A stretch of 40,803 bases of DNA from positions 1 through 40,803 of the forward strand of contig JAKASX010000024.1 in assembly GCA_021818865.1 (NCBI GenBank), in the 5' to 3' direction. The translations under genes were made by a program, and so were the position numbers. A model generated the notes under the pieces. It did not search any database, was not told the DNA's origin, and was given only the letters and a program-made list of their open reading frames with translations. The stretch comes from Acidobacteriota bacterium (GTDB taxonomy: Bacteria; Acidobacteriota; Terriglobia; Acidiferrales; UBA7541). This document shows positions 5,952 through 28,862 of the stretch, in pieces (the first letter of the stretch is position 1; each line of letters opens with the position of its first letter).

Positions 5952-6023
5952 TGACATCAAAAAGCGGTGGGAGTACAAGTGCGGACCGGAAGTGGAGGGT
6001 TGGCGTCGAGTAAACGTTTACTC
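5952..6023 (+). promoter_or_regulatory. Promoter and LacI-type operator of the arabinose-locus TonB receptor
   Basis: TTGACA (5952-5957), a 17-base spacer and TACAAG (5975-5980) form a good promoter, with transcription expected to start near 5987. At 6008-6023 lies the perfect 16-bp palindrome GAGTAAACGTTTACTC, about 20-35 bases inside the transcript. It has the CG-centred form typical of LacI-family operators and is the best copy of a motif repeated across this locus. The leader up to the ATG at 6207 is about 220 bases. Apart from this, the 5798-6206 interval shows no convincing gene. Confidence 0.75.
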
Positions 6024-6206
6024 TCCGCGCCCGCTTTTCCTTCCCGGCTCGTTGCTGGGGAGGCTCTTCCTGCCGCGTTGGGCGGTTGGATAGACCTGTT
6101 AGGGCGCTGTGTGTTGGGCGAATTGACCCTCGCGCGCGGGGCAGCCGCGTAGGGCCGCGTTTCGAAAATCGAAAAGGGCTTGGGGTTTTCTCCCGGAGGT
6201 GAGGAG

Positions 6207-10443: not shown

Positions 10444-12141
10444 ATGACCGCCCTCGCGGCCTTCGCCGCCGCTCCCGCTCGCCTGGCCCATCTCTCTCCG
10501 ATCGATCTCGTTATTGTCGCCTTCTATTTCATTCTGGTTTTGGGCATAGGTTTCTATCTGAAGGGCCGCACGAAAACCGGCGAGGATTTCTTCATGGCCG
10601 GGCGCGAAATGTCCGCCTGGATCGCCGGTCTTAGCTTCATGTCCGCCAATCTCGGCGCGCTCGAGCTGATGGGCTGGTCCGCCGCTGCCTACGAATACGG
10701 CATTCTCGCCGCGCACGCCTATTGGATCGCCGCCGTTCCCGCGATGCTGTTCCTCGGCATCGTGATGATGCCGTTCTACTACATCTCCAAAACCCACTCC
10801 GTTCCCGGCTATCTCAAACTCCGTTTCAACGAGCCCACTCGCGCCCTCTCCGCCGTCTCTTTCGCCTTCATGACCGTTCTGATGAGCGGCATCAACATGT
10901 ACGCGATGGCCCTCCTGCTCAACATCGTGCTCGGCTGGCACATGAGCTTCAGCATCTGGATTTCCGCGCTCACCGTCGCCATCTACGTCGCTCTCGGCGG
11001 CTTGCGCTCCGCCATTTTCAACGAAGTCCTCCAGTTCGTTCTCATCTGGGCCGGCTCGCTCCTGATTCCGATTCTCGGCCTGGTCGAAGCCGGCGGCTGG
11101 GAACAGCTCAAGGCCCAGATCATTCACAACACCTCCGTCCAGTACGTTCACCTCTGGCGCTATCTCGGCTCGTTCCACAATCCGATGGGCGTCAACTGGG
11201 TTGGCGTCGTCCTCGGCCAGGGTTTCGTCATCTCCTTCGCCTACTGGACCACCGACTTCCTCGAAGTCCAGCGCGTCTTGGCCGCGAAAGATCTCCGCTC
11301 GGCCAAAATGGCTCCGATCATCGCCGCTGGCTTCAAGATGTTCGTTCCCTTCATCGTCATTCTTCCCGGCCTTTTGGGCCTGGTCGTCTTTCCGCATCTC
11401 ACCGGCGCCAGCCTCGCCTCCGGCGGCGCAAAAAGCTACAACGCCGTTCTTCCGCTCATGCTCGTTCGCTATTGCAGTCCGGGCCTGCTCGGCTTGGGCG
11501 TCACCGCGCTGATTGCCGGCTTCATGTCCGGCATGGCGGGCAACGTCAGCGCCTTCGCCACCGTCTGGACCTACGATATTTACCGCGCGCTGATTCGCCG
11601 CGAAGCTTCCGACGCGCACTACGTCCGCATGGGCCGCTGGTGCACGATTCTCGGTGTTCTCATCAGCATCGGCACGGCCTATTTCGTGATGCAATTCCTC
11701 AGCATCATGGACTACGTCCAGGCCCTCTTCAGTATCTTCATCGCGCCGCTTTTCGGCACCGTCATTCTCGGCATGCTCTGGAAACGCACCACCGGCAAGG
11801 GAGCGTTCTGGGGCTTGCTGCTCGGCACCGTCTCGGCCGCCGGCATGTTCGCCTGGGAGCGCCAGGATCCCTCCGCCGTGCGCTACCTCGCGCTCTCGAT
11901 CCACGCGAAACCCCTCGCCGCCGATATCTATCGCGCGCTCTGGTCCTGGCTCATCTGCGTCCTGGTGACGGTCATCGTCAGCTATTTCACCAAGCCCAAG
12001 CCCGAAGCCGAACTCGCCGGCCTCGTCTACGGCGCAACCGAAATCCCGCGCGAAGAAAACGTCCCGCTGCTCCAGAAACCGATGTTCTGGGCGATTGTCG
12101 TGGGCGTGGTTTTCATAGCCATTAACATCATCTTCTGGTGA
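10444..12141 (+). CDS. Sodium:solute symporter (SSS family), probable L-arabinose importer
   Basis: A 565-residue inner-membrane symporter with about 14 hydrophobic helices, typical SSS/SGLT length. Family marks include the first-helix region IDLVIVAFYFILVLGIGFYL, the following GRTKTGEDFFMAGRE loop (an N-terminal hallmark of the family) and the helix-rich core with ALGGLRSAIFNEVLQF. It imports a solute with sodium. The sugar assignment comes from its place between an operator-controlled TonB receptor and the L-arabinose catabolic genes. GGAGG (10422-10426) is 17 bases from this ATG but only six from an ATG at 10433 that opens a four-codon reading frame ending across the symporter start (ATGA). 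Its own stop overlaps the next gene (GTGA). Confidence 0.92.
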   Translation: MTALAAFAAAPARLAHLSPIDLVIVAFYFILVLGIGFYLKGRTKTGEDFFMAGREMSAWIAGLSFMSANLGALELMGWSAAAYEYGILAAHAYWIAAVPAMLFLGIVMMPFYYISKTHSVPGYLKLRFNEPTRALSAVSFAFMTVLMSGINMYAMALLLNIVLGWHMSFSIWISALTVAIYVALGGLRSAIFNEVLQFVLIWAGSLLIPILGLVEAGGWEQLKAQIIHNTSVQYVHLWRYLGSFHNPMGVNWVGVVLGQGFVISFAYWTTDFLEVQRVLAAKDLRSAKMAPIIAAGFKMFVPFIVILPGLLGLVVFPHLTGASLASGGAKSYNAVLPLMLVRYCSPGLLGLGVTALIAGFMSGMAGNVSAFATVWTYDIYRALIRREASDAHYVRMGRWCTILGVLISIGTAYFVMQFLSIMDYVQALFSIFIAPLFGTVILGMLWKRTTGKGAFWGLLLGTVSAAGMFAWERQDPSAVRYLALSIHAKPLAADIYRALWSWLICVLVTVIVSYFTKPKPEAELAGLVYGATEIPREENVPLLQKPMFWAIVVGVVFIAINIIFW

Positions 12142-12374
12142 CGACGATGGAACGCGACGGCTCGATCTCGATCTGGTTTTTCATCGGCATCTGCCTGTTG
12201 GTGGATGGCGTGCTGATTTTCGCCGCCGGCCTCTACCAGCTCTCCCATCCGCCCGTCCATCCGGTCGTTCTCGCCTCGCTCCATGCCAACGTCTGGTGGG
12301 GTGCTGTGCTCGCCGTTTCCGGCGTTCTCTGCATGTGGCAGGTCGCCCCCTGGCGCCACGGGTCGAAAAAGTGA
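12138..12374 (+). CDS. Small two-helix membrane protein, possible symporter accessory subunit
   Basis: A 78-residue protein (75 if the internal ATG 12147 is used) with two hydrophobic helices: ISIWFFIGICLLVDGVLIFA at about 10-30, and a second around VVLASLHANVWWGAVLAVSG. A Pro/His-rich link separates them and the tail WRHGSKK is basic. The start GTG overlaps the symporter stop by four bases, indicating tight coupling. Several SSS transporters are known to have small membrane partners (DUF485 with ActP, YhdT with PanF), so a partner role is plausible. I do not recognise the sequence as one of those families. Alternatively it is an unrelated small membrane protein. Confidence 0.8.
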   Translation: MTTMERDGSISIWFFIGICLLVDGVLIFAAGLYQLSHPPVHPVVLASLHANVWWGAVLAVSGVLCMWQVAPWRHGSKK

Positions 12375-12410
12375 CCGAAGAAAACGCCCTCGTCTCCACG
12401 CCCGCGGCGA

Positions 12411-12474
12411 TTGACAACTCCCGGCCGACTCAGCACAATCTCACGCAGCGGCCCCTTCCGGAAAACGTTTCATC
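12411..12474 (+). promoter_or_regulatory. Internal promoter and operator in front of the LacI-type regulator
   Basis: TTGACA (12411-12416), a 17-base spacer and CACAAT (12434-12439) predict a start near 12446. The AAACGTTT core at 12463-12470 follows, within GAAAACGTTTCA. This resembles the 6008 operator in its centre but has weaker flanks. The arrangement suggests the regulator represses its own internal promoter, downstream of the small membrane protein gene. Confidence 0.55.
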
Positions 12475-12529
12475 TCCGCAAGCCGCTGGGAAGCGTCCCG
12501 CGGCCGGCCGCTCGGTGGGAGACGGCCCC

Positions 12530-13582
12530 TTGAACATTCACGAAGTCGCCCGTCAGGCCAAGGTTTCGATCGCGACGGTCTCGCGCACGATCAATGGCGT
12601 GCCCAGCGTCACGCCCGAGCTTTCCCGCCGCGTCTGGAAAGCCATCGAGGAGATGGGCTACTACCCGAATACCCAGGCCCGCGCCCTCGTTTCCGGCCGC
12701 AGCCGCATCTTCGGCTTGATCGTTTCGGAAATCACCAATCCCTTTTTTCCCGAAATCATTCAGGGATTCGAGGACGTCGCCGTCCAGCACAATTACGAAA
12801 TCCTCGTCACCTCCACCATCCACGACCCGGCTCGCATGGCCCTCGCCGTCCGCCGCATGATCGAGCGCCGCGTCGAGGGCGTCGCCATCGTCACGTTCGG
12901 CATGGAAGAGCCGTTGCTCGACGACCTCAAATTGCGCAAGGTCCCGCTCGCCTTCATCGACGTCGGCCCGCCCCTCCCGCTCGTCAGCAACATTCGCATC
13001 GATTATCTCAACGGAATTCGCCAGGCCGTTCAGCATCTGGCCGCTTTGCGCCACACGCGCATCGCCTTCATTTCCGGCCCGCTCAGTCTGAAATCCGCCA
13101 TGGCTCGCCGCCGCGCGTTCACCGACGCCATTCGCGAAATCGGCCTCGCGCCCAATCCGCGCTATATGATCGAGGGCGATCACACGCTCGAGGGCGGCAT
13201 GGCCGCGCTCCGCGAAATCGCTCGCCTGCGCCAGCGCCCCACCGCCGTCCTCTGCTCCAACGATATGACGGCCATCGGCGTCCTCCGCCAAAGCTACGAG
13301 GAGGGCATCCAAATCCCGCGCGATCTCTCGGTCATCGGCTTCGACGATATTCGCCTGGCCCAGTTCGTCATCCCTCCGCTCAGCACCGTCAAAATGTCGC
13401 AGACGGAAATCGCCCAGCTGGCCTTCAACGCCCTGCTGGCCGATGTCGAGCGGAAAACGCCTTCGCCCAACGGTTCCGAATACGTTCTGCGCACCAGCCT
13501 TGTCCTGCGCGATTCCACCGCGCTCGTCGCCGGTGGCGCGCGTCGCCCGCGGTCCCGCACGGCGGGCGATTCCCAGCCGTAG
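12530..13582 (+). CDS. LacI-family transcriptional regulator, probable arabinose-locus repressor
   Basis: A 350-residue LacI-family protein when started at TTG 12530, which has GGGAG eight bases upstream (12517-12521). The helix-turn-helix then begins almost at residue 1: NIHEVARQAKVSIATVSRT, followed by the hinge PNTQARALVSGRSRIFGL. From about 60 onward there is a periplasmic-binding-protein fold: GLIVSEITNPFFPEIIQGFE, the RRVEGVAIV strand, RIAFISGPLS, and DLSVIGFDDIRLAQFVIPPLSTV near the C-terminus. This is the usual family length. A GTG at 12371 overlapping the previous stop would add 53 residues and is the alternative. The CG-centred palindromes upstream of most genes here fit a LacI-type binding site. 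The inducer is presumably L-arabinose or a derivative (inference). Confidence 0.93.
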   Translation: MNIHEVARQAKVSIATVSRTINGVPSVTPELSRRVWKAIEEMGYYPNTQARALVSGRSRIFGLIVSEITNPFFPEIIQGFEDVAVQHNYEILVTSTIHDPARMALAVRRMIERRVEGVAIVTFGMEEPLLDDLKLRKVPLAFIDVGPPLPLVSNIRIDYLNGIRQAVQHLAALRHTRIAFISGPLSLKSAMARRRAFTDAIREIGLAPNPRYMIEGDHTLEGGMAALREIARLRQRPTAVLCSNDMTAIGVLRQSYEEGIQIPRDLSVIGFDDIRLAQFVIPPLSTVKMSQTEIAQLAFNALLADVERKTPSPNGSEYVLRTSLVLRDSTALVAGGARRPRSRTAGDSQP

Positions 13583-13609
13583 CGGCGCCCGAATACCCGT
13601 GGAGGGACG

Positions 13610-13663
13610 TTGACAACCGGCCATGCGTTGAGTAGCGTGGGGCGTTCGAGAAAACGTTTGCTC
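13610..13663 (+). promoter_or_regulatory. Promoter and operator of the araD-isomerase-araB operon
   Basis: TTGACA (13610-13615), a 17-base spacer and TAGCGT (13633-13638) predict a start near 13645. The operator GAGAAAACGTTTGCTC (13648-13663) sits immediately downstream and matches the 6008 palindrome at 14 of 16 positions. Binding there would block initiation or early elongation. Confidence 0.7.
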
Positions 13664-13698
13664 GCTCGGAAAATCAAGGCGATCGGCTCTTTCGGCTC

Positions 13699-14409
13699 AT
13701 GAAACTGCAACGACTTCGCGAAGAGGTTCTCGAAGCCAATCTCGAGTTGGTTCGCCGCGGCCTCGTCCTCTACACCTTCGGCAACGCCAGCGGCATCGAC
13801 CGCGACGAAGACCTCGTCGTCATCAAGCCCAGCGGCGTCTCCTACGAATCTCTCAAGCCTTCGGGTCTCGTCGTCACCGATCTTTCCGGCCAGATCGTCG
13901 AGGGCGAATACCGGCCGTCTTCCGATCTGCCAACGCATCTGGTTCTCTATCGCCAATTCGCGAACATTTGCGGCGTCGTTCACACTCATTCCGAATTTGC
14001 CACCGCTTGGGCCCAGGCCGGCCGTTCGCTCCCATGTTTCGGCACCACCCACGCCGATTATTTCCATGGCCCCGTTCCTGTCACCGCGCATCTCACCGAG
14101 TCCGAAATCGGCTCGGGTTACGAGGAGCAGACCGGAATCGCCATCTGCCGCGCCTTCGAGTCTCTCGATCCCGGCGAAATGCCCGCCGTTCTCGTCCGCG
14201 GCCACGGCCCGTTCTGCTGGGGCAAGGATCCCGCGTCCGCCGCGCATCACGCCGTGATTCTCGAAGCGGTGGCGCGCATGGCCTATTTCACCTTGGCGCT
14301 CAGTCCCGATGCCGCGCCGATTCCTTCCGCGCTCCATGAAAAGCATTTTTCCCGCAAGCATGGAACCGGCGCCTATTACGGCCAGGCCGAGCGAAAAGGA
14401 CAGGGGTGA
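13699..14409 (+). CDS. araD: L-ribulose-5-phosphate 4-epimerase (class II aldolase fold)
   Basis: Converts L-ribulose 5-phosphate to D-xylulose 5-phosphate, the last specific step of bacterial L-arabinose breakdown; cytoplasmic. The 236 residues match AraD throughout. The start LREEVLEANLELVRRGLVLYT and the GNASGID phosphate-site loop are present. The metal site shows His95 and His97 in VVHTHSEFA and His169 in RGHGPF. Asp/ser segment SSDLPTHL, GTTHADYF and the C-terminal HFSRKHGTGAYYGQ are also typical. Length and histidine positions agree closely with the E. coli enzyme. It is the first gene after the operator at 13648 and is followed by the isomerase and kinase. Fuculose aldolases share the fold but lack this C-terminus. 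Confidence 0.93.
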   Translation: MKLQRLREEVLEANLELVRRGLVLYTFGNASGIDRDEDLVVIKPSGVSYESLKPSGLVVTDLSGQIVEGEYRPSSDLPTHLVLYRQFANICGVVHTHSEFATAWAQAGRSLPCFGTTHADYFHGPVPVTAHLTESEIGSGYEEQTGIAICRAFESLDPGEMPAVLVRGHGPFCWGKDPASAAHHAVILEAVARMAYFTLALSPDAAPIPSALHEKHFSRKHGTGAYYGQAERKGQG

Positions 14410-14423
14410 GTCTTTTCTGTAAA

Positions 14424-14448
14424 CGCCGGCCGCGGCTCGCAGCCGGCG
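14424..14448. other. Small hairpin between araD and the isomerase gene
   Basis: CGCCGGC (14424-14430) pairs with GCCGGCG (14442-14448) across an 11-base loop, starting 15 bases after the araD stop. It may affect relative mRNA stability or give partial termination within the operon. No T tract follows. Confidence 0.35.
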
Positions 14449-14533
14449 GAAATGAGGGAAGAGGTTTCCGGCGTTCCCGGTCCCGGCGTCAGTCGGCAGC
14501 GGGCGGAGCGCCGCCCTCGTGTGCGAGGTGACG

Positions 14534-15958
14534 ATGACGACGCAAAAGAACAAGAAAATGACGTTTGGCCTGCTCGTGGGAAATCGTGGCTTTTTCCCCG
14601 GCCATCTGGCCGAATCCGGCCGCAAGGAAATGCTCGAGGCTCTCGCTCGTGCCGGCCACCAGGCCGTCGTGCTCGATCCATCCGAAAGCCGCTACGGCGC
14701 CGTCGAATCCTACCAGGAAGCCAGGCGCTGCGCCGATCTGTTCCGTTCCCGCGCTGACGAAATTGACGGCGTCATCGTCACCCTCCCCAATTTCGGCGAC
14801 GAACGCGCCGTCGCCGATACCCTCCGCATGGCCCGTCTCGATGTTCCCGTCCTCATTCAGGCCACGCCCGATACGCCCTCGAAACTCTCGATTGCCCATC
14901 GCCGCGATAGCTTCTGCGGCAAAATGTCCGTCTGCAACAATCTCTCGCAATACGGCATTCCGTTCTCACTCACCTCCAATCACACCGTCGCTCCCGATTC
15001 CGACGCGTTCCAGAAAGATCTCGCCTGGTTTGCCGCCGTCTGCCGCGTGACGAACGGTCTGCGCCGCCTCCGCATCGGCAGCATCGGCGCGCGTCCTGCC
15101 GCGTTCCAAACGGTTCGCTACAGCGAAAAACTCCTCGAAGCCTCCGGCATCTCCGTCGAAACCCTCGATCTTTCTGAAATCCTCGCTCGCATTGACCGCC
15201 GCAAGGACGATGACGAAGCCGTCGTCAGAAAGCTCTCGGCGATCGAGCGCTACGTTCCCACCGCCGGCGTCCCCCAAGCCGCCCTCCTCAAAATGGCCAA
15301 GCTCGGCGTCGTCGTCGACGAATGGATGTGCCATTCCGATCTCACCATCAGCGCCGTTCAGTGCTGGACCGCCATCGAGGAGCAGCTCGGCGTGGTTCCG
15401 TGCACGGTCATGAGCATGATGAGCGACGGCCTGCATTCGAGCGCCTGCGAAGTGGATATCTGCGGCGCGCTCAGCATGCACGCCCTCCGCCTCGCCTCGG
15501 AAACGCCCAGCGCCCTGCTCGATTGGAACAATAACTACGGCGACCACCCCGATAAAGCCGTCTGCTTCCATTGCAGCAATCTGCCTAAGCATTTCCTCCG
15601 CAACGTCAAAATGGATTATCAGGCGATCATCGCCGGCACCGTCGGCAAGGAAAATACCTATGGCACGTGCGTCGGCCTCGTGAAATCCGGCCCGATGACC
15701 TTCGCCCGCTTCTCCACCGACGATCGCTCCGGCCGCATTCGCGGCTATCTCGGTGGTGGCGCGTTCACCGATGATCCGCTCGAAACCTTCGGCGGGGCCG
15801 GCGTCGTCGAGATCCCGCGTTTGCAGTACCTGCTCCATTACATTTGCGAAAATGGCTTCGAGCACCACGTCGCCGCCAATCTTTCCTCCGTCTCCGGCGC
15901 CGTCCACGAAGCCGCCACGCGCTATCTCGGCTGGCAAGTCTACCGGCACGAAGCGTAG
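14534..15958 (+). CDS. L-fucose/L-arabinose isomerase-family protein (COG2407 type), probable L-arabinose isomerase
   Basis: A 474-residue sugar isomerase predicted to turn L-arabinose into L-ribulose. ATG 14534 has GAGG (14525-14528) five bases upstream. The fold follows the FucI/AraA-like superfamily: an N-terminal Rossmann-like domain (KMTFGLLVGNRGFFPGHLAE), a middle domain, and a C-terminal barrel-like part. Candidate metal-site residues are the acids in VQCWTAIEEQLG and ACEVDICGALS, plus the histidine in AVCFHCSNLP. It does not look like classical E. coli-type AraA and is closer to the COG2407 group. The function rests mainly on being flanked by araD and araB in an operator-controlled operon, since no araA is seen. 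A different aldose substrate cannot be excluded. Confidence 0.82.
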   Translation: MTTQKNKKMTFGLLVGNRGFFPGHLAESGRKEMLEALARAGHQAVVLDPSESRYGAVESYQEARRCADLFRSRADEIDGVIVTLPNFGDERAVADTLRMARLDVPVLIQATPDTPSKLSIAHRRDSFCGKMSVCNNLSQYGIPFSLTSNHTVAPDSDAFQKDLAWFAAVCRVTNGLRRLRIGSIGARPAAFQTVRYSEKLLEASGISVETLDLSEILARIDRRKDDDEAVVRKLSAIERYVPTAGVPQAALLKMAKLGVVVDEWMCHSDLTISAVQCWTAIEEQLGVVPCTVMSMMSDGLHSSACEVDICGALSMHALRLASETPSALLDWNNNYGDHPDKAVCFHCSNLPKHFLRNVKMDYQAIIAGTVGKENTYGTCVGLVKSGPMTFARFSTDDRSGRIRGYLGGGAFTDDPLETFGGAGVVEIPRLQYLLHYICENGFEHHVAANLSSVSGAVHEAATRYLGWQVYRHEA

Positions 15959-15975
15959 CGCCCGAGGTCCCGGTC

Positions 15976-17541
15976 ATGGCCATCGTTGCAGGCGTCGATT
16001 TCGGCACGTTGAGCGTTCGCGTCTCGCTCGTCGATAGCGAGCGCGGAATCCTCGCTTCCGGTGTCGAGGAAATCCCCCTCCATCGCCGCCGCGACGATCC
16101 CGAATTCGCCACCCAGTCCCACGACGACCACATGCGCTCGCTCGCCGCCGCCACGCGCGCAGCCCTCCGCCAGGCCGGCGTCTCGGGCGATGAAGTCGCG
16201 TCGATCGCCCTCGATACCACCGGCTCGTCCGTCATTCCCGTCGCCGCTGGCATGGTCCCGCTCGACGACTACTACCTCTGGTGCGATCATCGCGCCAAAG
16301 CCGAAGCCGCCGAAATCACCGCGCTCGCCCACCAGGAGCATCTCGAAGCCATCGAGTGGTGCGGCGGCGTCTATTCCACCGAATGGGGTTTCTCGAAACT
16401 CCTCCACTGGCTGCGCCACAATCCCGAAAAACGCGCCCATTTCTCGAGCGCCTTCGAGCACTGCGATATGGTCGCCGCCACGCTTTCCGGCATCACCGAT
16501 CCCGCGAAAGTCGTTCGCAGCGTCTGCGCCATGGGCCACAAATGGCTTTGGCATCCCGATCTCGGCGGTTTGCCTCCGGAAAGTTTCCTCGTGAAAGTGG
16601 ATCCGCTGCTCGCCGGCGTGCGCTCGAAGCTCGATAGCTCGTTCGCCACGTCCGACAAAATCGAGGGCCATTTGTCCCCCGCCTGGGCCGAGCGTCTCGG
16701 CCTTCGCGCCGGCATTCCGATTCCCGTTGGCGCCTTCGACGCCCATTGGGACGCCATCGGCGCTGGAGTCCGCGAAAACGACATCGTCAACGTCATCGGC
16801 ACGTCCACCTGCATGATCGGCATCACCCGCGAAACGCGCCTCGTCCCCGGCGTCTGCGGCGTGGTGAAGGGAAGCGTTCATCCCGCGTACACCGGCATCG
16901 AAGCCGGCCTTTCCGCCACTGGCGATATTTTCGACGCCATCGCCCGCCGTGCCGGCACGTCCGTCTCTGAATTGAGCAAGGATCTCGAATCCTATCGTCC
17001 CGGCTCGACAGGCCTTCTTCGCCTCACCTGGGATAATGGCGATCGCACCGTTCTCGTGAACGCCAGCCTCCGCGGCGTCACGCTCGGCTGGAATCTTCAG
17101 CACACCGCCAAGGACGAGCTCTTCGCCGCTATCGAAGGCACCGCCTTCCACACCCGCGCCATTCTCGAGCGCATGGCCGAGCACGGCACTCGCATCGAGC
17201 GCGTGATCCACGCCGGCGGCATTCCCCAAACGAATCCCGTCCTGAATCAGGTTTACGCCAACGTCCTCGGCCGTCCCGTCCTCGTTCCAAAAGGTAAAAT
17301 CACCAGCCTCGGCTCGGCCATCTTCGCGTTCCTCGCGGCCGGCGTTTTCCCCACAATCGAATCCGCGCAAGAGCGGTTGTGCCCTCCCTATGCCATCTAC
17401 CAGCCGCAGCCAGAAGCGCAACGCGTCTACGATCAGCTCTATCCGCTCTACAAGCGCCTCTATTTCGATCTCGGCCGGCCAAATGCAGGCAGCGCCTTCG
17501 GCGACGTTTTGCCCACCCTACTCCGCCTCGCGACCGTATAG
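15976..17541 (+). CDS. araB: L-ribulokinase (FGGY carbohydrate kinase)
   Basis: Phosphorylates L-ribulose to L-ribulose 5-phosphate with ATP; cytoplasmic. The 521 residues show the FGGY fold: phosphate-1 loop VDFGTLSVRVSLVD near the start, IALDTTGSSVIPV, the sugar site GAFDAHWDAIGAG with its catalytic Asp, GTSTCMIGI, and the adenosine-site segment IHAGGIPQTNPVLNQ. TTGSS and the GGIPQ motif are characteristic of ribulokinases as opposed to xylulokinases. The start ATG 15976 has GAGG nine or so bases upstream and lies 17 bases after the isomerase stop. The gene ends the araD-isomerase-araB operon, which gives the complete route to D-xylulose 5-phosphate. Confidence 0.92.
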   Translation: MAIVAGVDFGTLSVRVSLVDSERGILASGVEEIPLHRRRDDPEFATQSHDDHMRSLAAATRAALRQAGVSGDEVASIALDTTGSSVIPVAAGMVPLDDYYLWCDHRAKAEAAEITALAHQEHLEAIEWCGGVYSTEWGFSKLLHWLRHNPEKRAHFSSAFEHCDMVAATLSGITDPAKVVRSVCAMGHKWLWHPDLGGLPPESFLVKVDPLLAGVRSKLDSSFATSDKIEGHLSPAWAERLGLRAGIPIPVGAFDAHWDAIGAGVRENDIVNVIGTSTCMIGITRETRLVPGVCGVVKGSVHPAYTGIEAGLSATGDIFDAIARRAGTSVSELSKDLESYRPGSTGLLRLTWDNGDRTVLVNASLRGVTLGWNLQHTAKDELFAAIEGTAFHTRAILERMAEHGTRIERVIHAGGIPQTNPVLNQVYANVLGRPVLVPKGKITSLGSAIFAFLAAGVFPTIESAQERLCPPYAIYQPQPEAQRVYDQLYPLYKRLYFDLGRPNAGSAFGDVLPTLLRLATV

Positions 17542-20214: not shown

Positions 20215-21813
20215 TTACGCCTTTTCGAGCACCAACACGCGCAGCGAATGCGCCGGGCACGAATGCCGGAATTTCCTCGCAGCGCCCGAAAACGTGCTCT
20301 GTCTCACGCCCACGTTATGCGGCGAGGCAAACGTGTTCGTCGCGTCCAAACTCGGTCCGTTCACCTCGTAAGAAACGCCGCTTTCCCGCGGCTGGAATCC
20401 CGCGATCTCGATTTCCACCGGAATTTCCGCCGTCGGATGCCGATTCACCAGCGCCAGCGTCAGTTTGCTGTTCGCGGCATCCGTCGTTGCCGAAATGTCC
20501 ATGTACGGCGTTTCCGGCATCCCCGGAAACGACTCTGATCGCGTGTACGCGTCGAGCGCCACGTCGCCAGAATGCTTCGCGTAAAGCTGGAACGGAAAAT
20601 AAGTCGTCTGCAAAACGAGTCCGTCTTTGTTGGTCATCATCGGCGCGATCACGTTCACCAGTTGCGCCTCGTTCGCCATTCCTATCGACCGGCACATCCG
20701 GTGGAAAATGTTCAGGGCCGATGCCGTCCACAGCGCGTCTCGCAGATTGTAGATTTCCTCGAGTTCGTGACGGTCGCCCCGCTTGTACCACGACCGGAAC
20801 CAGATGTTCCATTCATCCGCGGCGATCAGCACCGGCTCCTTTTTCCTCACGTTCGTCATCACCGCGGTCACCAGGCCCTCGAGCGCCTCGAGTTGCCGCT
20901 GGAAAAAGTACGCATCCTGCATCTCTTTCGCCGTGTCCAGGCTTCCGCCGTAATGATGCAGCGAGACGTAATCCGCCACGCGCCCCAGGCGCTCCAGCAC
21001 CGTCACGTCCCACTTCACGCTCGTATCGCAGACCGCCACCAGCTTGATCGTCGGATCCACGCCGCGCATCAATTCCGCGAAATTCTCCGCATTCGCCGCG
21101 TAATCCTTCGCGTCCATGTGCCCGATCTGCCAGCTGCCATAAACCTCGTTTCCCAAACCCCAATATTTCACGCCGTAGGGCGCGGCATGCCCGTTTTTCC
21201 GCCGTTCGTTCGCCCATTTTGTGTCGGTCGTTGCGTTGCAGTATTCCACCCAATCCGCCGCGTCTTGCATCGTTCCCGTTCCCATGTTCACCGTCAGGTA
21301 GGGCTCCACGTTCAGCTTCTCGCAATAGCGCAAAAATTCGTCGGTGCCGAACTGATTCGGTTCCACTTCCTGCCACGCCGTGTCCCACAGCCGCGGCCGC
21401 TCATTTTTCGGCCCGATCCCGTTTTTCCAGATGTAGCCCGAGGCGAAATTCCCGCCCGGCCATCTCAGCACCGTCACGCCCAGTTCCCGCACCGCTTGCA
21501 TCACGTCTTTGCGGTAACCCTCGGCATCGGAAAGCGGCGACCCCGGATCGTAAACGCCGCCGTAAACGCATCGTCCCAGCTGCTCGATGAAGCTCCCGTA
21601 AATCTTCTTGTCGATCGTGCCGATTCTGCGGTCGAAATCGAGCCTCACCAGTGCCCCGCCCGCTCCCTGCGCCGCCGCTTGCCGTTCCGCTTCTTCACCC
21701 GGCGTTTGGGTCCATCCGCTTACCGGCTCGAGCAAGGGAATCGCCGCCGCTCCAAGCGCCGCCATCACCCCGTGTTTCAAAAAGTCCCGTCTTGCGCGAT
21801 TCTCAATGGTCAT
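20215..21813 (-). CDS. Alpha-L-arabinofuranosidase, GH51, Tat-exported
   Basis: A 532-residue retaining glycosidase releasing terminal alpha-L-arabinofuranose from arabinan or arabinoxylan fragments. A twin-arginine signal (ARRDFLKHG followed by a mild hydrophobic stretch) opens the protein, so it acts in the periplasm or beyond. The catalytic barrel carries IYGSFIEQLGRCVYGG, VTVLRWPGGNFASGY, the acid/base Glu223 in WGLGNEVYGS and the nucleophile Glu334 in ADEWNIWF. The C-terminal beta-sandwich ends the chain (STFSGAARKFRHSCPAHS). ATG 21813 has AGGA about seven bases upstream. A LacI-type operator lies inside its promoter at 21883-21898. GH51 enzymes are commonly intracellular, so Tat export is notable but consistent with the GH127 gene nearby. 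Confidence 0.94.
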   Translation of the reverse strand: MTIENRARRDFLKHGVMAALGAAAIPLLEPVSGWTQTPGEEAERQAAAQGAGGALVRLDFDRRIGTIDKKIYGSFIEQLGRCVYGGVYDPGSPLSDAEGYRKDVMQAVRELGVTVLRWPGGNFASGYIWKNGIGPKNERPRLWDTAWQEVEPNQFGTDEFLRYCEKLNVEPYLTVNMGTGTMQDAADWVEYCNATTDTKWANERRKNGHAAPYGVKYWGLGNEVYGSWQIGHMDAKDYAANAENFAELMRGVDPTIKLVAVCDTSVKWDVTVLERLGRVADYVSLHHYGGSLDTAKEMQDAYFFQRQLEALEGLVTAVMTNVRKKEPVLIAADEWNIWFRSWYKRGDRHELEEIYNLRDALWTASALNIFHRMCRSIGMANEAQLVNVIAPMMTNKDGLVLQTTYFPFQLYAKHSGDVALDAYTRSESFPGMPETPYMDISATTDAANSKLTLALVNRHPTAEIPVEIEIAGFQPRESGVSYEVNGPSLDATNTFASPHNVGVRQSTFSGAARKFRHSCPAHSLRVLVLEKA

Positions 21814-21874: not shown

Positions 21875-21903
21875 TATGTATGCTAAAAACGTTTACTCGT
21901 CAA
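21875..21903 (-). promoter_or_regulatory. GH51 promoter with LacI-type operator in the spacer
   Basis: On the minus strand TTGACG (21903-21898) and TACATA (21880-21875) are 17 bases apart. The operator CTAAAAACGTTTACTC (plus-strand reading, 21883-21898) fills the spacer, so repressor and polymerase could not bind together. Its right half matches the 6008 palindrome exactly. Confidence 0.65.
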
Positions 21904-22007: not shown

Positions 22008-22023
22008 GCGTAAACGTTTACAC
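22008..22023 (+). promoter_or_regulatory. LacI-type operator before the 1101-residue exported protein gene
   Basis: GCGTAAACGTTTACAC has a perfect TAAACGTTTA core (22011-22020), ending 16 bases before the start codon at 22040. The site is divergent from the GH51 operator, 115 bases away, so one regulator may control both genes. No convincing -35/-10 pair was found for this gene. Confidence 0.65.
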
Positions 22024-22039
22024 GAAAGGAACCTCAACC

Positions 22040-25000
22040 ATGTTCCGCATACCCTCCCGCCCGGCCACCCCGTCCGTCGCGGCCCTCCCGACCGAGTCTT
22101 TCGTGTCGCCGCGCTCGTTGCCAGCTCTTTGTCTGGTTTTTGTCGTGGCTCTGTTCGTCTTGATTCCGTTGCACGTCGCTCGCGCACAATCTCCGGCCTC
22201 TCGTCTGTCCAGCTCCCAATTCCATCTCTCCTATTCCCGCGCCGGCCTCACCGCCATTCGCCACGTTCGCGACGTCTACGACACGAACTACATCGCGCGC
22301 GGCTCTGCACTCGGACGCTTGATCGTTCGCTATCGCGCGCTGGGCGCAAAGCAATGGCGCGAAGCCGGAGCGGCCGAAATCACCCCGAACCCGACTGGCG
22401 GTTCCTCTTCCGTTTCCTACACGATCGGCGTCGGCCTTCCCACGATCGCCCGCTCCAGCCGTCCGTCGGCTTCCGTGCGATCCTTCGCCGTTTTCGCGCT
22501 CGGCGATGGTCTCGTTCCGCCCAATTCGCGCGCCTTCCGCGTTCCGCATTACGAATGGTTCGGCCGCAGAGGCACGCGCGAATGGGTTCAATATGATTTC
22601 CCCAAATCCGAGCGCGTATTTTCGAGCGAAGTCTATTGGTTCGTCGAAAACAGCGCCAGCCAGCCCTGCGCTCTCCCGAAAAGTTGGCAGGTGCTCTATC
22701 GCAGTGGAAATCGCTGGCTTCCTGTCGCCGCGACCACCCCTTATCCTATCCAGGCGAACCAGTTCGATCGCGTCGCTTTCAGCCCTGTCACCACCTCCGC
22801 TCTCCGCATCGAAGTTCAACTCGCGCCCAACGCGACGGCCGGCTTGCTCCAATGGCGGGTGAACGATCAAAAAGCCGAAAAAGTCCTGCCTCTGCATCGC
22901 CTGCAAATTCGTGAGACGTTCCGGCTCGAAAAGGGCGCCATGCTCTGGACCATCGCTTTGCGAAATGAATCCAGCAGCGCCATGGAGATCGGCGATCTTG
23001 GCCTGCCGCTGCCCATGAACAACCGCTACGTTGGCAACAAACTCGTCACCTACACTAGGCGCGTGATTCGTCACGCCTTCATCGGCGGCAACGGCTCGTT
23101 TCTTTTCTGGATGCGGACCGACGCCATCGGTCCGTTCCTCGTGATGACTCCGCTCCGTGGCACGTCGCTCGAATATTTCACGCTCGAGCCTTTCCGCGGC
23201 TACGCCGTCTACATCCATTCCGCCGCCAGCGCCGCCGCGCTGCGCGCTCGCGGCGGCAAATGGCAGCTGCCGAATACGCGTCTCGTGCTCCAGCCTCGCG
23301 GCCGCGGGGGCGATTCAGCCGCGTACGGCTTCCGTTTCGACTGGGCGCAAAATTACGCCGCCGTGCGCCAGGTTCTTTACGATCGTGGCCTGTTCGACGT
23401 CAACGTCGTTCCCGGCATGACCGTTCCCACCGATCTCTCCGCCACGTTCTCCCTCCGCACGCGCGACCGCATTCGCGCGATCGTTCCTCAATATCCCGCC
23501 AGCACGCGCCTCCGCTATCTCGGCGAGCGCGGCCGGAACGTTTTCGTCTACCGCGTCCATTTCTCGCGGCTCGGCGAAAATACGCTCACCGTCCAATACG
23601 GCCGCGGCCGCTATCTGCCGCTCCAGTTTTTCTCCACGTTGCCCCTCGAATCGCTCATCAAAAAACGCGCCGCCTTCATCGTCTCTCACGAGCAGCACCG
23701 GAATCCCAAGAAGTGGTATTACGGCCTTTTCTCGCAATGGGACATGAAAGATCAGGTGCTTCGCGGTCCCGATAATCTCGGCGGATTGCGCCGCTACATG
23801 GTCGCTTGCGACGACCCGATTCTCGGCAAAGCCGAATTCCTCGCGGAAAAAAACGTCTATTATCCGAATCCCGGCGAAATCGCCGCAATCGAGCTCTACA
23901 TCCGCCACTACGTCTGGGGCGGCCTGCAGGAAACCACGCGCGAAAAATTCCCCTACGCCATCTACGGCATCCCCAACTGGAAAGTGAATCGCACCAGCAG
24001 CAATCCCGGCCCCGCCGGGCGCGAGCACGTCTGGCGCATCTACGATTACCCGCACGTTTTCGGCATGTATTACTACATGTATCGCGTTGCGAAACGCTAC
24101 CCGCGGTTGACGCACTATCTCGACGCCGCCGGCTACCTCCAGCGCGCCTTCGGCACCGCCAAAGCCTTCTTCACCGTCCCGAACGAACTGATTCACTGGT
24201 CCGCCTACGGCACCGGCACGTACGACGAACTCGTGATTCCCCGCATCGTGCGCGCACTTCGTCAAAATGGCCATCCGCGCGAAGCCGCGTGGCTCGAAGG
24301 GCAATGGCAGAAAAAGGTCGAATATTTCGTGAATCGGCACCCCGACCTCTTTCAGTCCGAATTTCCGTTCGATTCCACGGGATTCGAATCCACCGAAGCC
24401 CTCGCCAAATACGCGGTTGACCGCTCCGCCGTTCCGGGCGCCACGCCCGAAAACAAATTCCAGCGCCAGGTCACGCGTTCCGCGGCCGAGCGTTTTCTCC
24501 ATCAGCAGATTCGCTTGAATATCGGCGATCGCGGTTGGCTCGAACCCGATTATTTCGATCTTGGCAGCGATTTCCGCGCCGGAGGTGGCGCAACGTTCAC
24601 GCTCGATTACATGGCGCAGATGGGCGGCTGGGCCATCCTCGACTACGCGCTTCATTTCGCGCGCGATCCCGCGCCGTATTTCCGCCTCGGTTACGCTTCT
24701 TATCTGAGTTCCTGGGCGCTGGTGAACGCGGGCACCAAATCTTCCGATTACGGCTACTGGTATCCCGGAAAAAATAACGATGGCGGCGCGAGCGGCGGAT
24801 TCGAAGCGCGTCCCTGGGGCCGCATCTGGTTCGGCAATTTCCAGACTCCGCGCGGCCCTTGGCCATATTCCGGCGAAATCGATCTGGGATTCACCGGCGC
24901 GCTTCGCACGTCAGCCACCATCGTCGCTCGCGATCCCATTTTCGGCCTCTACGCGTATGGCGGAAAACTGCTGCGCTCGAAATCGCCGATCGAAGTGATT

Positions 25001-25345
25001 CCCCGCGACGGTTTGCGCGTCCGCTTCCACGCCTTTCTCGGTTCGAACCGGTTCACCATGGTGATTTCTCCCGATGGTTTCGCCCGCGGCAGACCCATCT
25101 GCTTCAACCAATCGCTCACGGATATCGCATTCACACTGGAAAATCGTGCTGGCGTTGCGCACGCATCGCATATTCGCGTTGATGGCCTTCCCTCCGGCGT
25201 CTATCAAGTGAACGTTTCAAGCCGTCCCTACCAGCGTTTCGCCGCGGATGCCGAAAAGGGAAACGTGATCGCCGTTCCAATGAACGGCCGCTCGCTTGCG
25301 GTCAGAATCTTTCGCGTTCGCACGGCCAGTGAAAAGTCAAAATAG
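22040..25345 (+). CDS. Large exported protein, DUF5695-like, candidate glycoside hydrolase of the arabinose regulon
   Basis: 1101 residues with AAGGA 10 bases before the ATG. A signal peptide or anchor (LCLVFVVALFVLIPLHVARAQ) ends near residue 50. Around 180-310 is a beta-sandwich resembling a galactose-binding-like module: EWVQYDFPKSERVFSSEVYW, then PCALPKSWQVLYRSGNRWLP. A similar VYWF-PKSW pattern occurs in the C-terminal part of some GH127 proteins. From about 545 to 960 the protein is rich in Trp/Tyr and alternating helices (WYYGLFSQWDMKDQVL, MYYYMYRVAKRYP, LNIGDRGWLEPDYFDLGSDF), suggesting an alpha/alpha barrel of the six-hairpin glycosidase type. A beta-rich tail follows. I recall this as a DUF5695-type protein, not a characterised family. 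An operator 16 bases upstream and GH51/GH127 neighbours suggest action on arabinose-containing glycans. Confidence 0.85.
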   Translation: MFRIPSRPATPSVAALPTESFVSPRSLPALCLVFVVALFVLIPLHVARAQSPASRLSSSQFHLSYSRAGLTAIRHVRDVYDTNYIARGSALGRLIVRYRALGAKQWREAGAAEITPNPTGGSSSVSYTIGVGLPTIARSSRPSASVRSFAVFALGDGLVPPNSRAFRVPHYEWFGRRGTREWVQYDFPKSERVFSSEVYWFVENSASQPCALPKSWQVLYRSGNRWLPVAATTPYPIQANQFDRVAFSPVTTSALRIEVQLAPNATAGLLQWRVNDQKAEKVLPLHRLQIRETFRLEKGAMLWTIALRNESSSAMEIGDLGLPLPMNNRYVGNKLVTYTRRVIRHAFIGGNGSFLFWMRTDAIGPFLVMTPLRGTSLEYFTLEPFRGYAVYIHSAASAAALRARGGKWQLPNTRLVLQPRGRGGDSAAYGFRFDWAQNYAAVRQVLYDRGLFDVNVVPGMTVPTDLSATFSLRTRDRIRAIVPQYPASTRLRYLGERGRNVFVYRVHFSRLGENTLTVQYGRGRYLPLQFFSTLPLESLIKKRAAFIVSHEQHRNPKKWYYGLFSQWDMKDQVLRGPDNLGGLRRYMVACDDPILGKAEFLAEKNVYYPNPGEIAAIELYIRHYVWGGLQETTREKFPYAIYGIPNWKVNRTSSNPGPAGREHVWRIYDYPHVFGMYYYMYRVAKRYPRLTHYLDAAGYLQRAFGTAKAFFTVPNELIHWSAYGTGTYDELVIPRIVRALRQNGHPREAAWLEGQWQKKVEYFVNRHPDLFQSEFPFDSTGFESTEALAKYAVDRSAVPGATPENKFQRQVTRSAAERFLHQQIRLNIGDRGWLEPDYFDLGSDFRAGGGATFTLDYMAQMGGWAILDYALHFARDPAPYFRLGYASYLSSWALVNAGTKSSDYGYWYPGKNNDGGASGGFEARPWGRIWFGNFQTPRGPWPYSGEIDLGFTGALRTSATIVARDPIFGLYAYGGKLLRSKSPIEVIPRDGLRVRFHAFLGSNRFTMVISPDGFARGRPICFNQSLTDIAFTLENRAGVAHASHIRVDGLPSGVYQVNVSSRPYQRFAADAEKGNVIAVPMNGRSLAVRIFRVRTASEKSK

Positions 25346-25395
25346 CGACGGAAGCGAAACTCGGCTTCTTGACCGATCGCCGATCGAGAGATAGG

Positions 25396-26607
25396 GTGAA
25401 ATCTGTCAGGGAAATGGCAGCTTCGGAAAAATCCCCAAACTCGTTTCAACGCCAATGGAAAGTGCTTCTCACGCTGAGTGTCGCCGTTGCTCTCCTGGTG
25501 ATCGCGGCGATCATCGTCGTTTCAATCAGCCATCCTAAGAGCCCGCGTGCCGCTCGAATTTCCGCGCTGAAAACAGCGAATCCCGCGCGCACCAACCCCG
25601 ACGTTGATGTGGGAAGTCGCGCCACCGGCGCGCTGGCGCCCGGCTTCGTGCTCCGCGATCAAAATGGCCGGCTCACCTCACTCGCGCAGTTTCGCGGCAA
25701 GGTCGTTGTGCTGGCAATGGTCGATTCCCGTTGCACCACGATCTGCCCGATGACCACCGAAAGCATGGTGGAAGCGCTCCGCCTGCTCGGTCCGGCCGCC
25801 GCGCAAGTGCAGCTGCTCGGAATCAACGCCAATCCATTGGCCACTCGCGTGGCCGATGTCGCCGCCTACACACGCGCGCACGATATGCAAGGGAAGTGGC
25901 GATTCCTCACCGGTTCGCCCGCGCAACTCCAGCGCGTCTGGCATGGCTACCACGTCTACGTCGCCGCCATTCATAACGACATCGACCACGATCCCGCCAT
26001 TTTCCTGATCGGCCCGCATGGCCGCGAACGCAGGGAGTATCTCACTCAACTCAGTTACGAGGGCGTCGATCAGCAGGCGCAAATCCTGGCGCAAGGCATC
26101 GCGCGATTGCTGCCCGGTCATCCCGCCGTTCGCCACGAAACTTCGCTGCAATATGTGCCGCCGCTCGGGCCAAAAGACGTGGTGCGGTTTCCTGCCGTAG
26201 GATCGCCCGGCCGAGAGGTGACGCTGGGAGGCGATCATCCGCACCTGCTCCTCTTTTTCGCCGAATGGCTCGGGGAAAATTCAAATTTGGCTGCAAAACT
26301 TGCTGCGCTCGATGGCTACGCCTCCATGGCGAAACGCAAGAATTGGCCTACGCCCGTCGTGATCGACGAACTCTCCACCGAGGCTTCGCCGAGGGAAGCG
26401 CGAAAACTGCTCTCCGTGCTGGCGCCAAAGCTCGATGCTCCGATTGTTGAGGATACTCGCGGCCGCCTCGCCGATGGTTACCGCGTGAAAGACTTACCGT
26501 GGTTCGCCCTCAGTTCGCCCTCCGGCCGGATCCTTTGGCATCACGACGGCTGGCTTTCGCCCTCCGCTCTCGAACGCCAGGTGCGCGCCGCACTTGCCGG
26601 AAGCTGA
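25396..26607 (+). CDS. Membrane-anchored SCO1/SenC-like protein with a second thioredoxin-like domain
   Basis: About 403 residues; GTG 25396 and ATG 25414 are both possible starts. One N-terminal membrane helix (LLTLSVAVALLVIAAIIVVS) anchors two thioredoxin-fold domains outside the cytoplasm. Domain 1 (about 80-230) is SCO1-like: Cys113 and Cys117 in DSRCTTICPMT and the copper-site-type His in DIDHDPAIFLIGPHG. SCO1 proteins deliver copper to cytochrome c oxidase or act in thiol redox. Domain 2 (about 260-400) has a thioredoxin-like outline (LLLFFAEWLGENS, then a DLPWFALSSPSGRIL cis-Pro region) but no cysteine pair. It follows the 1101-residue gene by 50 bases and is probably cotranscribed. 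Why a redox or copper protein sits between two glycosidase genes is unclear. Confidence 0.88.
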   Translation: MKSVREMAASEKSPNSFQRQWKVLLTLSVAVALLVIAAIIVVSISHPKSPRAARISALKTANPARTNPDVDVGSRATGALAPGFVLRDQNGRLTSLAQFRGKVVVLAMVDSRCTTICPMTTESMVEALRLLGPAAAQVQLLGINANPLATRVADVAAYTRAHDMQGKWRFLTGSPAQLQRVWHGYHVYVAAIHNDIDHDPAIFLIGPHGRERREYLTQLSYEGVDQQAQILAQGIARLLPGHPAVRHETSLQYVPPLGPKDVVRFPAVGSPGREVTLGGDHPHLLLFFAEWLGENSNLAAKLAALDGYASMAKRKNWPTPVVIDELSTEASPREARKLLSVLAPKLDAPIVEDTRGRLADGYRVKDLPWFALSSPSGRILWHHDGWLSPSALERQVRAALAGS

Positions 26608-26771: not shown

Positions 26772-26834
26772 TATAATCCCACCTCGGAGTTGAGTTTGGC
26801 GTGGCCGCGGCTGCCGCAATGTAAACGTTTTCTG
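26772..26834 (+). promoter_or_regulatory. GH127 upstream region with TATAAT box and LacI-type operator
   Basis: TATAAT (26772-26777) is a consensus -10 box, though no good -35 lies at normal spacing. The operator ATGTAAACGTTTTCTG (26819-26834) is about 40 bases downstream. The core TAAACGTTT matches the regulon motif. AAGGAG at 26884-26889 is the ribosome site of the gene. Confidence 0.6.
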
Positions 26835-26897: not shown

Positions 26898-28862
26898 ATG
26901 ACGATTTGGAAAGAAGGCGTTTCCCGCAGATCGTTCCTGCTCGGAGCGGCTGCGGCCACAGGTCTCGAACTCCTTCCGAAACCGCTTTTCGCCGGTTCCG
27001 ATCCGCCCTCCGCGCTGCCCGCTCCCCCGCCGCAGCGCCGTCCCGGTTTTCTCCACGGCGTGCCGCCGAAAGTCGAACCGTTTCCTATGAAACAGGTCCG
27101 GCTCGATCCCGGGCCATTTCTGGACGCGATGGAAATCAACCACAAATATCTTTTCACCCTTCCCGACGACCGCCTGTTGCACATGTTCCGCGTCACCGCT
27201 GGCTTGGCATCCACGGCGCAGCCGCTCGGCGGCTGGGAGCGGCCAAACTGTGAACTGCGCGGCCATTTCTCCGGCGGCCATTTCCTTTCCGCCGCGGCGC
27301 ACATGTACGCCAGCACCGGCGACGAAGACCTGAAAAAGAAGGCCGACGATGTGGTGGCGCAACTCGCGCTTTGCCAGAAGGCCCTGAAAAACGGCTATCT
27401 GAGCGCGTTTCCCATCGAGGAGTTCGATCGCCTGCGCAACGGCCAGCCCGTTTGGGCGCCCTTTTACACGATTCACAAAATCATGGCCGGCCATTTCGAC
27501 ATGTACGTCCATACGGGAAACGAGCAGGCGCTCGACACCCTCGAAAAAATGGCCCGATGGGTCGGCAGTTGGGTCGGCCCGCTCAGCGACGACCAGATGG
27601 CGCGCGTGCTCGAAATCGAGCAGGGCGGCATGTTCGAGGTCCTGTGCAATCTGGCCGCGGCGACGGGCAAATGGCAATACCTCGGCATCGCGCATCGTTT
27701 CGACCAGAAACAATTCTTCGATCCGCTCGCCAAGTTTCACGATGAATTGCGCGGCCTCCACACTAATACGAATATCCCGAAGGTCATCGGCGCCGCGCGC
27801 TTCTACGAAATCACCGGCGACCCGCGCTACCGCAATATTTCCTCGTTTTTCTGGGATGAAGTCGCCCTCCGCCGTTCTTACGCCACCGGCGGCACGAGCG
27901 ACGGCGAATACTGGACCACGCCGGTCGCCAACCTTTCCCACACGCTCAACGAATACAACGAGGAATGCTGCACCGGCTACAACATGCTCAAGCTGACCCG
28001 CCATCTCTACGGATGGACCGGCGATCCGCGCTACATGGATCACTACGAGCGCACGCTCTTCAATAGCCGGCTCGGCACGCAAAACGACGAAGGCATGAAA
28101 AGCTATTTCGTTCCGCTCGGCTCGGGATTCTGGAAATATTACAACTCGCGCTGGGATTCGTTCTGGTGCTGCACCGGAACCGGCGCCGAGGAATTTTCGA
28201 AATTCAACAACACCATCTACTATCACGACGATCGCGGCATCTACGTCAATCTCTACATCGCATCCCACGTCGACTGGCCCGAGCGCGGCATCAAATTGCG
28301 TCAGGAAACCCGTTTTCCGGAACAGGAAAGCGCCACATTCGTCATCAGCGCCGAGCATCCCGTTGAGATGGCGCTTCATCTCCGCATCCCGTACTGGGCC
28401 ACGCGCGGCGGCACCGTGAAGCTCAACGGCGAAGCCCTGCCCATTTTCTCGAGCCCGACCAGTTATCTGACGATCGACCGCGTCTGGAAAAACGGCGACC
28501 GCGTCGAACTCGATTTGCCGATGACCCTCCACGCCGAGCCTCTTCTCGGCGATCCGTCCCACGTCGCGGCCATGTACGGCCCGCTGGTTCTTGCCGGCCG
28601 CCTGGGCTCGAACGGCCTGACTCCGGAAATGATGCAGGCCGAATACGACACCGCACCGCGCGGCAGGCCGGCGGAAGTCGCTGCGCTGAACTCCAAAACC
28701 CCCGAAAAACTCGACTGGGTCGAAGCCTCCAACCAGCCACTCACGTTCCATCTGGTTGGTCAAAGCGCGCCAACCGAGTTGATCCCCTTCTATCAAATTT
28801 ACGGCGAAAAATACGCCATCTACTGGAAATTCAATCTCCCGCGGCCATTCCGCCGCGCGTAG
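26898..28862 (+). CDS. Beta-L-arabinofuranosidase, GH127 (DUF1680), Tat-exported
   Basis: 654 residues. ATG 26898 has AAGGAG eight bases upstream. The start carries a twin-arginine signal (SRRSFLLGAAAATG), so the enzyme acts in the periplasm. GH127 cleaves beta-L-arabinofuranosyl linkages, for example in hydroxyproline-linked plant arabinans. The alpha/alpha barrel includes GGHFLSAAAHMYASTGD, VWAPFYTIHKIMAGHFDMYV and the metal-nucleophile sites. These are the Glu/Cys cluster EECCTGYNML (Glu355-Cys358) and the FWCCTGTGAEEF pair (Cys424-Cys425), which correspond to the zinc-bound cysteine site described for HypBA1. A beta-sandwich ends the protein. The operator at 26819 places it in the LacI regulon. 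With GH51 it lets the cell remove both alpha- and beta-linked arabinofuranose. Confidence 0.93.
   Translation: MTIWKEGVSRRSFLLGAAAATGLELLPKPLFAGSDPPSALPAPPPQRRPGFLHGVPPKVEPFPMKQVRLDPGPFLDAMEINHKYLFTLPDDRLLHMFRVTAGLASTAQPLGGWERPNCELRGHFSGGHFLSAAAHMYASTGDEDLKKKADDVVAQLALCQKALKNGYLSAFPIEEFDRLRNGQPVWAPFYTIHKIMAGHFDMYVHTGNEQALDTLEKMARWVGSWVGPLSDDQMARVLEIEQGGMFEVLCNLAAATGKWQYLGIAHRFDQKQFFDPLAKFHDELRGLHTNTNIPKVIGAARFYEITGDPRYRNISSFFWDEVALRRSYATGGTSDGEYWTTPVANLSHTLNEYNEECCTGYNMLKLTRHLYGWTGDPRYMDHYERTLFNSRLGTQNDEGMKSYFVPLGSGFWKYYNSRWDSFWCCTGTGAEEFSKFNNTIYYHDDRGIYVNLYIASHVDWPERGIKLRQETRFPEQESATFVISAEHPVEMALHLRIPYWATRGGTVKLNGEALPIFSSPTSYLTIDRVWKNGDRVELDLPMTLHAEPLLGDPSHVAAMYGPLVLAGRLGSNGLTPEMMQAEYDTAPRGRPAEVAALNSKTPEKLDWVEASNQPLTFHLVGQSAPTELIPFYQIYGEKYAIYWKFNLPRPFRRA

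Follow-up and report, generated by a model that had tools for sequence, protein, structure and literature searches.

Which plant sugar chain, and by which reaction, would be attacked by a large protein encoded among arabinose genes in an Acidobacteriota bacterium? The question is raised by a contig of 40,803 nt (the window, i.e. the whole stretch of DNA analysed), in which an earlier note, made from the sequence alone, had singled out an unassigned, exported 1101-residue protein as a candidate for a new arabinan-active enzyme. The features on which our answer rests are collected in Table 1.

Table 1. Features of the locus, with coordinates in the window
Feature	Position	Strand	Remarks
Second exact copy of the operator GTAAACGTTTAC	6010–6021		Precedes a 1316-aa TonB-type outer-membrane receptor (6180–10130)
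Arabinose uptake and catabolism	10444–17541	+	SSS symporter, LacI, AraD, fucose-isomerase-type (AraA-like) isomerase, AraB
GH51 alpha-L-arabinofuranosidase	20215–21813	-	Divergent neighbour of the DUF5695 gene
LacI-type operator GTAAACGTTTAC	22010–22021		Perfect 12-bp palindrome; ends 18 nt before the ATG of the DUF5695 gene
DUF5695 subfamily A gene	22040–25345	+	ATG start, 1101 aa, predicted to be exported, purifying selection
Signal peptide, Sec-type	22040–22186	+	Residues 1–49, ARA/QS at 47–51; hydrophobic stretch, read by eye
N-terminal strand region of beta-sandwich	22211–22429	+	Residues ~58–130; alignable throughout subfamily A, with or without the module
F5/8 type C (galactose-binding-like) module, inserted	22487–22879	+	Residues ~150–280
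Beta-sandwich domain common to PL27	22892–23644	+	Residues ~285–535; hhalign and hmmsearch alignment
Predicted (alpha/alpha)6-barrel core	23645–24964	+	Residues ~536–975; homology to the 5NO8 barrel
R666-x-Y668-D669-Y670-P-H672 motif	24035–24055	+	Proposed active-site element; R666 and Y668 correspond to PL27 R447 and Y449
E774-FPF-D778-STGF-E783 motif	24359–24388	+	Proposed catalytic acid(s); E774 corresponds to PL27 E537; PL27 has E at D778
C-terminal beta domain	24965–25324	+	Residues ~976–1095; kept across subfamily A; strands in the low-confidence AlphaFold2 model
SCO1/SenC-like gene	25369–26607		Between the DUF5695 and GH146-like genes
PF07944 beta-L-arabinofuranosidase, GH146-like	26898–28862	+	Assigned by nearest solved structure

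The 1101-residue protein and the DUF5695 family

The reading frame proved to be real, with a Shine–Dalgarno-like AAAGGA, and comparison with an 88 %-identical homologue (L004) returned a dN of ~0.07 against a dS of 0.57–0.72, indicating purifying selection. The putative signal peptide supports the proposed export. The protein is not unassigned, however: the Pfam profile DUF5695 (PF18951), which the earlier note had suggested searching, matches residues 277–791 well above its gathering cut-off (E value 1e-46, 159.9 bits against 25.2). A search of viral contigs revealed no relatives. The literature searched describes no function or activity for any DUF5695 protein, and mentions the family in a single paper, on fungal velvet regulators.

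Maximum-likelihood analysis divided the Acidobacteriota DUF5695 proteins into three well-supported subfamilies: A, the canonical B and a small C. Our protein belongs to subfamily A, whose members are 950–1180 aa long and 40–88 % identical to it, and all 20 of which match the Pfam profile. A further DUF5695 protein of the same genome, a canonical one scoring 1290 bits, is encoded on a different contig, and A and B genes are adjacent in several genomes. The 1101-aa protein keeps the family motifs YDYPHV and SExPxDSTGxE; compared with canonical members (subfamily B, ~1290 bits), it lies in a separate clade, carries an extra inserted module and has a longer barrel segment.

This module is present in 12 of the 20 subfamily A members and missing from the other eight, with the core intact either way, and we therefore regard it as an insertion. 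Its VYWF-PKSW pattern had been said to recall GH127 accessory regions, and the resemblance is genuine: a profile of the module finds GH127-type proteins, mostly at their C-termini (E values 1e-27 to 2e-41), as well as the C-termini of GH43 proteins (~1e-14), and the module of a Spirosoma GH127 protein is 40 % identical to ours. The PF00754/PF22633 profiles match nine of the 20 subfamily A members (best E value 4e-7), the window copy alone returning an E value of 0.1.

The alpha/alpha-barrel core suggested earlier also gains support. Homology to the PL27 enzyme of known structure (5NO8) leads us to predict a beta-sandwich followed by an (alpha/alpha)6 barrel. AlphaFold2 models built from an alignment of four sequences were too poor to confirm the barrel (pLDDT 35 for the mature protein, 39 for the barrel alone) on account of the shallow alignment, and a Foldseek search with the low-confidence barrel model gave chance matches only (best E value 0.7); as neither was informative, homology is the sole source of the barrel prediction.

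Operator, neighbours and gene company

The decamer TAAACGTTTA reported upstream of the gene is indeed perfect, at 22011–22020 in the centre of GTAAACGTTTAC, but the spacing to the ATG is 18 nt from the palindrome or 19 nt from the decamer, not 16. The 3.97-Mb genome contains two exact copies of GTAAACGTTTAC, both in the window, and the receptor encoded behind the second probably imports glycans for the arabinose regulon. The operator upstream of the DUF5695 gene is kept in homologous loci (no mismatches in L004, one in L005). Less exact sites precede the GH51 gene (21885–21896, two mismatches) and the GH146-like gene (GTAAACGTTTTC at 26821–26832, one mismatch). Together with the arabinose pathway alongside, in which the LacI regulator gene lies at 12296–13582 and the SSS protein is a sodium symporter, the confinement of the exact operator to this cluster supports membership of the DUF5695 gene in an arabinose regulon. 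An aldose epimerase is also encoded in the window.

The isomerase (14519–15958) is not a classical AraA but a member of the fucose-isomerase C-terminal family, with a weak resemblance to sulfoquinovose isomerase. The canonical DUF5695 gene of the same genome (8847–11834, contig C147) adjoins a GH29 fucosidase and has a one-mismatch operator near its start. Two operator-like sites in that gene were set aside as weak: one at 10480 is mid-gene, one at 11625 lies within what is probably the start of the coding region (ATG 11672), and a reversed-pattern control returned four one-mismatch sites per genome.

Of the two flanking enzymes described earlier, GH51 stands as the divergent neighbour, whereas on the other side the SCO1/SenC-like gene intervenes and the supposed GH127 is better classed as GH146-like, being far closer to the GH146 structure 5OPJ (E value 8e-99) than to the GH127 enzyme 3WKW (1e-11); 8K7X and 8K7Y are further GH146 matches. 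The SCO1/SenC-like gene is also present in L004, and L005 has a 157-aa ORF instead.

We mapped five families in 43 genomes and compared their distances to DUF5695 genes with those expected under a uniform distribution, treating genomes as independent. PF07944 (GH127/146) genes lie within 20 kb of subfamily A genes in at least 15 of 24 genomes (expected 0.81; at least 10 of 14 genera) and of subfamily B genes in at least 18 of 30 (expected 0.75; at least 12 of 18 genera). The proline-racemase/4-hydroxyproline-epimerase family occurs near B in 12 of 30 genomes (expected 0.30) and DUF885 near B in 10 of 30. Hydroxyproline-type genes are found near A in three of 24 genomes, all three with B alongside; the hydroxyproline link thus belongs to subfamily B and for A is indirect. 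Two plasmid-borne B genes of Sphingomonas adjoin GH127, DUF885 and an Ldh-type oxidoreductase; in one cluster a DHDPS-family protein and an amino-acid permease are encoded as well. The Spirosoma GH127 that carries the shared module is encoded near an annotated 4-hydroxyproline epimerase, and GH39, GH43, GH27 and GH31 genes stand next to A or B in other loci. This company points to plant hydroxyproline-rich glycoproteins, arabinogalactan proteins and extensins among them. Near one subfamily A gene, a 686-aa protein without a Pfam match (L077, 17030–19090) adjoins GH51.

The window itself would also fit pectic arabinan, with its alpha-1,5 backbone and branches, as the substrate instead of glycoproteins, the protein then being an alpha- or beta-L-arabinofuranosidase that complements the GH51 and GH146-like enzymes. 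These two enzymes and AraBD occur together with one operator type, the 40,803 nt hold no hydroxyproline-type genes, and oligosaccharides derived from arabinan are substrates of BT0349, the GH146 founder (PMC10850190). Hydroxyproline-type genes and DUF885 go with sister subfamily B, whose genes are often next to those of A, and other loci have arabinogalactan-type neighbours; both points make this alternative unlikely in our view. The broader proposal of a new arabinan-active enzyme is plausible, with arabinosylated hydroxyproline-rich glycoproteins, including arabinogalactan proteins, equally possible as the substrate.

Kinship with PL27 and candidate active-site residues

A profile of the 20 subfamily A proteins returned one significant PDB entry, BACCELL_00875 (5NO8/5NOK; E value 2.6e-7), a PL27 L-rhamnose-alpha-1,4-D-glucuronate lyase that acts on arabinogalactan proteins. 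A profile of 17 subfamily B proteins also hit this enzyme (E value 3e-5), and the single 1101-aa sequence gave nothing significant against the PDB. Aligned by hhalign with PL27 (5NO8 and a Croceibacterium homologue), subfamily A reached probabilities of 98.2 % (local) and 99.3 % (global). The 5NO8 sequence itself scores 29.9 bits on the DUF5695 profile (cut-off 25.2), and the Croceibacterium homologue 8.6, below the cut-off. Several of the best Acidobacteriota matches of 5NO8 are subfamily A genes, and among the assignable matches PL27 is closest to A. The two PL27 sequences make up a clade of their own, whose branch measures 4.06 changes per site, and our protein falls outside it. On this sequence evidence, PL27 is the sole structural anchor and characterised relative, too distant for its substrate to be transferred, and no clear match to a characterised family with another substrate emerged. 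The Croceibacterium homologue, from a sponge-derived bacterium, is plasmid-borne (L093, 11707–13773), 32 % identical to BACCELL_00875 and annotated as hypothetical; its region also carries GH78 and TonB receptors.

Beyond the residues in Table 1, Y857 is conserved and corresponds to PL27 Y613. The R-H-W-D...H-Y-W segment of PL27 is largely kept in B and altered in A, in which D or S replaces the His of the H-Y pair and Y668 and Y857 are conserved. Conserved acids that could form the catalytic pair sought in the predicted barrel are present (E774, D778, E783 and D669). That the protein has no catalytic function and serves the receptor system as a glycan binder or scaffold might be suspected from the optional, predicted sugar-binding module and from the lack of any DUF5695 protein with measured activity in the literature searched; we consider it very unlikely, as the polar residues of the barrel are strictly conserved, both within the set of 20 sequences and between A, B, C and the PL27 enzyme.

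The full-length homology, the conservation of R666, Y668, E774 and Y857 and the closeness of PL27 to subfamily A raise another alternative, namely a functional PL27-like lyase that acts by beta-elimination on the side chains of arabinogalactan proteins, where it would remove a sugar cap from glucuronate and leave behind an unsaturated uronate; arabinogalactan-type neighbours (GH39, GH27 and GH43) would suit it too. The PL27 authors reportedly proposed a tyrosine as the base and GH105 as the remover of the unsaturated uronate. However, GH88/105, the expected partner, was never found closer than 20 kb to either A or B in the 43 genomes, a result that doubles as a negative control, and was lacking from our genome and from each of the ten genomes of the same family that carry A. 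RhaA was likewise lacking from our genome and from 18 of 24 A carriers (in both counts, the genomes are partly incomplete). With the His of the H-Y pair replaced in A and PL27 split off by a branch of ~4 changes per site, we judge such a lyase improbable. The missing GH88/105 and RhaA make a rhamnose- or glucuronate-releasing lyase less likely and lead us to favour hydrolysis over elimination. Against a hydrolase, it counts that a lyase is the sole relative so far characterised; nor do E774 and D778 (Glu at the latter position in PL27) discriminate between the two, as the PL27 lyase has them as well.

Proposed role and comparison with known systems

Our favoured reading, to which we give about an even chance, is that the protein is a secreted enzyme from a hydrolase-like line within the PL27 superfamily, cleaving arabinose-containing side chains of hydroxyproline-rich glycoproteins or arabinan; more generally, it probably removes sugar chains rich in arabinose from the material of plant cell walls. 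Arabinose would relieve repression by the local LacI-type repressor, so that the DUF5695 enzyme, the receptor, GH51 and the GH146-like enzyme are made together. The F5/8 type C module of the secreted enzyme may bind a plant glycan rich in arabinose, and the barrel pocket would then cleave a non-reducing-end side chain containing arabinose from extensin, arabinogalactan protein or arabinan, probably by acid/base hydrolysis with E774 and either D778 or D669 as candidate acids. The arabinose freed would enter the AraA/B/D route. Of this picture, computation establishes the family, the PL27 homology, the module, the operator held in common and the gene neighbourhood, from which we infer the barrel fold, repression that responds to arabinose, the class of substrate, the hydrolytic reaction and the acting residues.

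A wider proposal, which we regard as doubtful, is that DUF5695 is a glycoside hydrolase family not described before, with its origin among the PL27 lyases. In soil bacteria it would take the intermediate step, that of GH121 elsewhere, when Hyp-linked arabino-oligosaccharides are stripped from glycoproteins of the plant cell wall, with A and B splitting the linkages. That DUF5695 fills the GH121 slot of the extensin route in these bacteria is speculative. The PL27 link and the arabinose- and hydroxyproline-type gene sets nevertheless give an orphan family a concrete functional hypothesis, concerning the breakdown of plant hydroxyproline-rich glycoproteins by soil Acidobacteriota and sphingomonads; if DUF5695 does hydrolyse, elimination would have given way to hydrolysis within a single (alpha/alpha)6-barrel superfamily.

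Compared with PL27, DUF5695 A shares detectable full-length homology, a predicted beta-sandwich and (alpha/alpha)6 barrel and the R-x-Y-[DN] and E motifs; it differs in its ~20 % identity in the profile alignment, its position outside the PL27 clade, the loss of the HYW-motif His, the absence of a GH105 partner and a gene company of arabinose rather than rhamnose or glucuronate. With GH127/GH146 it has in common the F5/8 type C module found in many of those enzymes, close gene neighbourhood and, in the window, the operator type. The cores, however, are not detectably related: sequence kinship with GH127, one of the families that the earlier note named for comparison, was rejected (hhalign probability 0.1 %), the 1101-aa protein has no PF07944 match, and its single barrel cysteine (C590) precludes a Cys3-Glu zinc site. 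Neither GH142 nor GH121 chains were returned at E values up to 10 when the A and B profiles were searched against all PDB chains. The GH121 beta-L-arabinobiosidase HypBA2 of the extensin pathway combines an (alpha/alpha)6 barrel with F5/8 type C modules, and GH121 is found mainly in bifidobacteria and Xanthomonas (PMC7263609); the route characterised for extensin starts with GH43, followed by GH121 and then GH127/146 (PMC6085000). Though no sequence similarity to HypBA2 was detected, DUF5695 would hold the same step of this pathway if the extensin reading is right.
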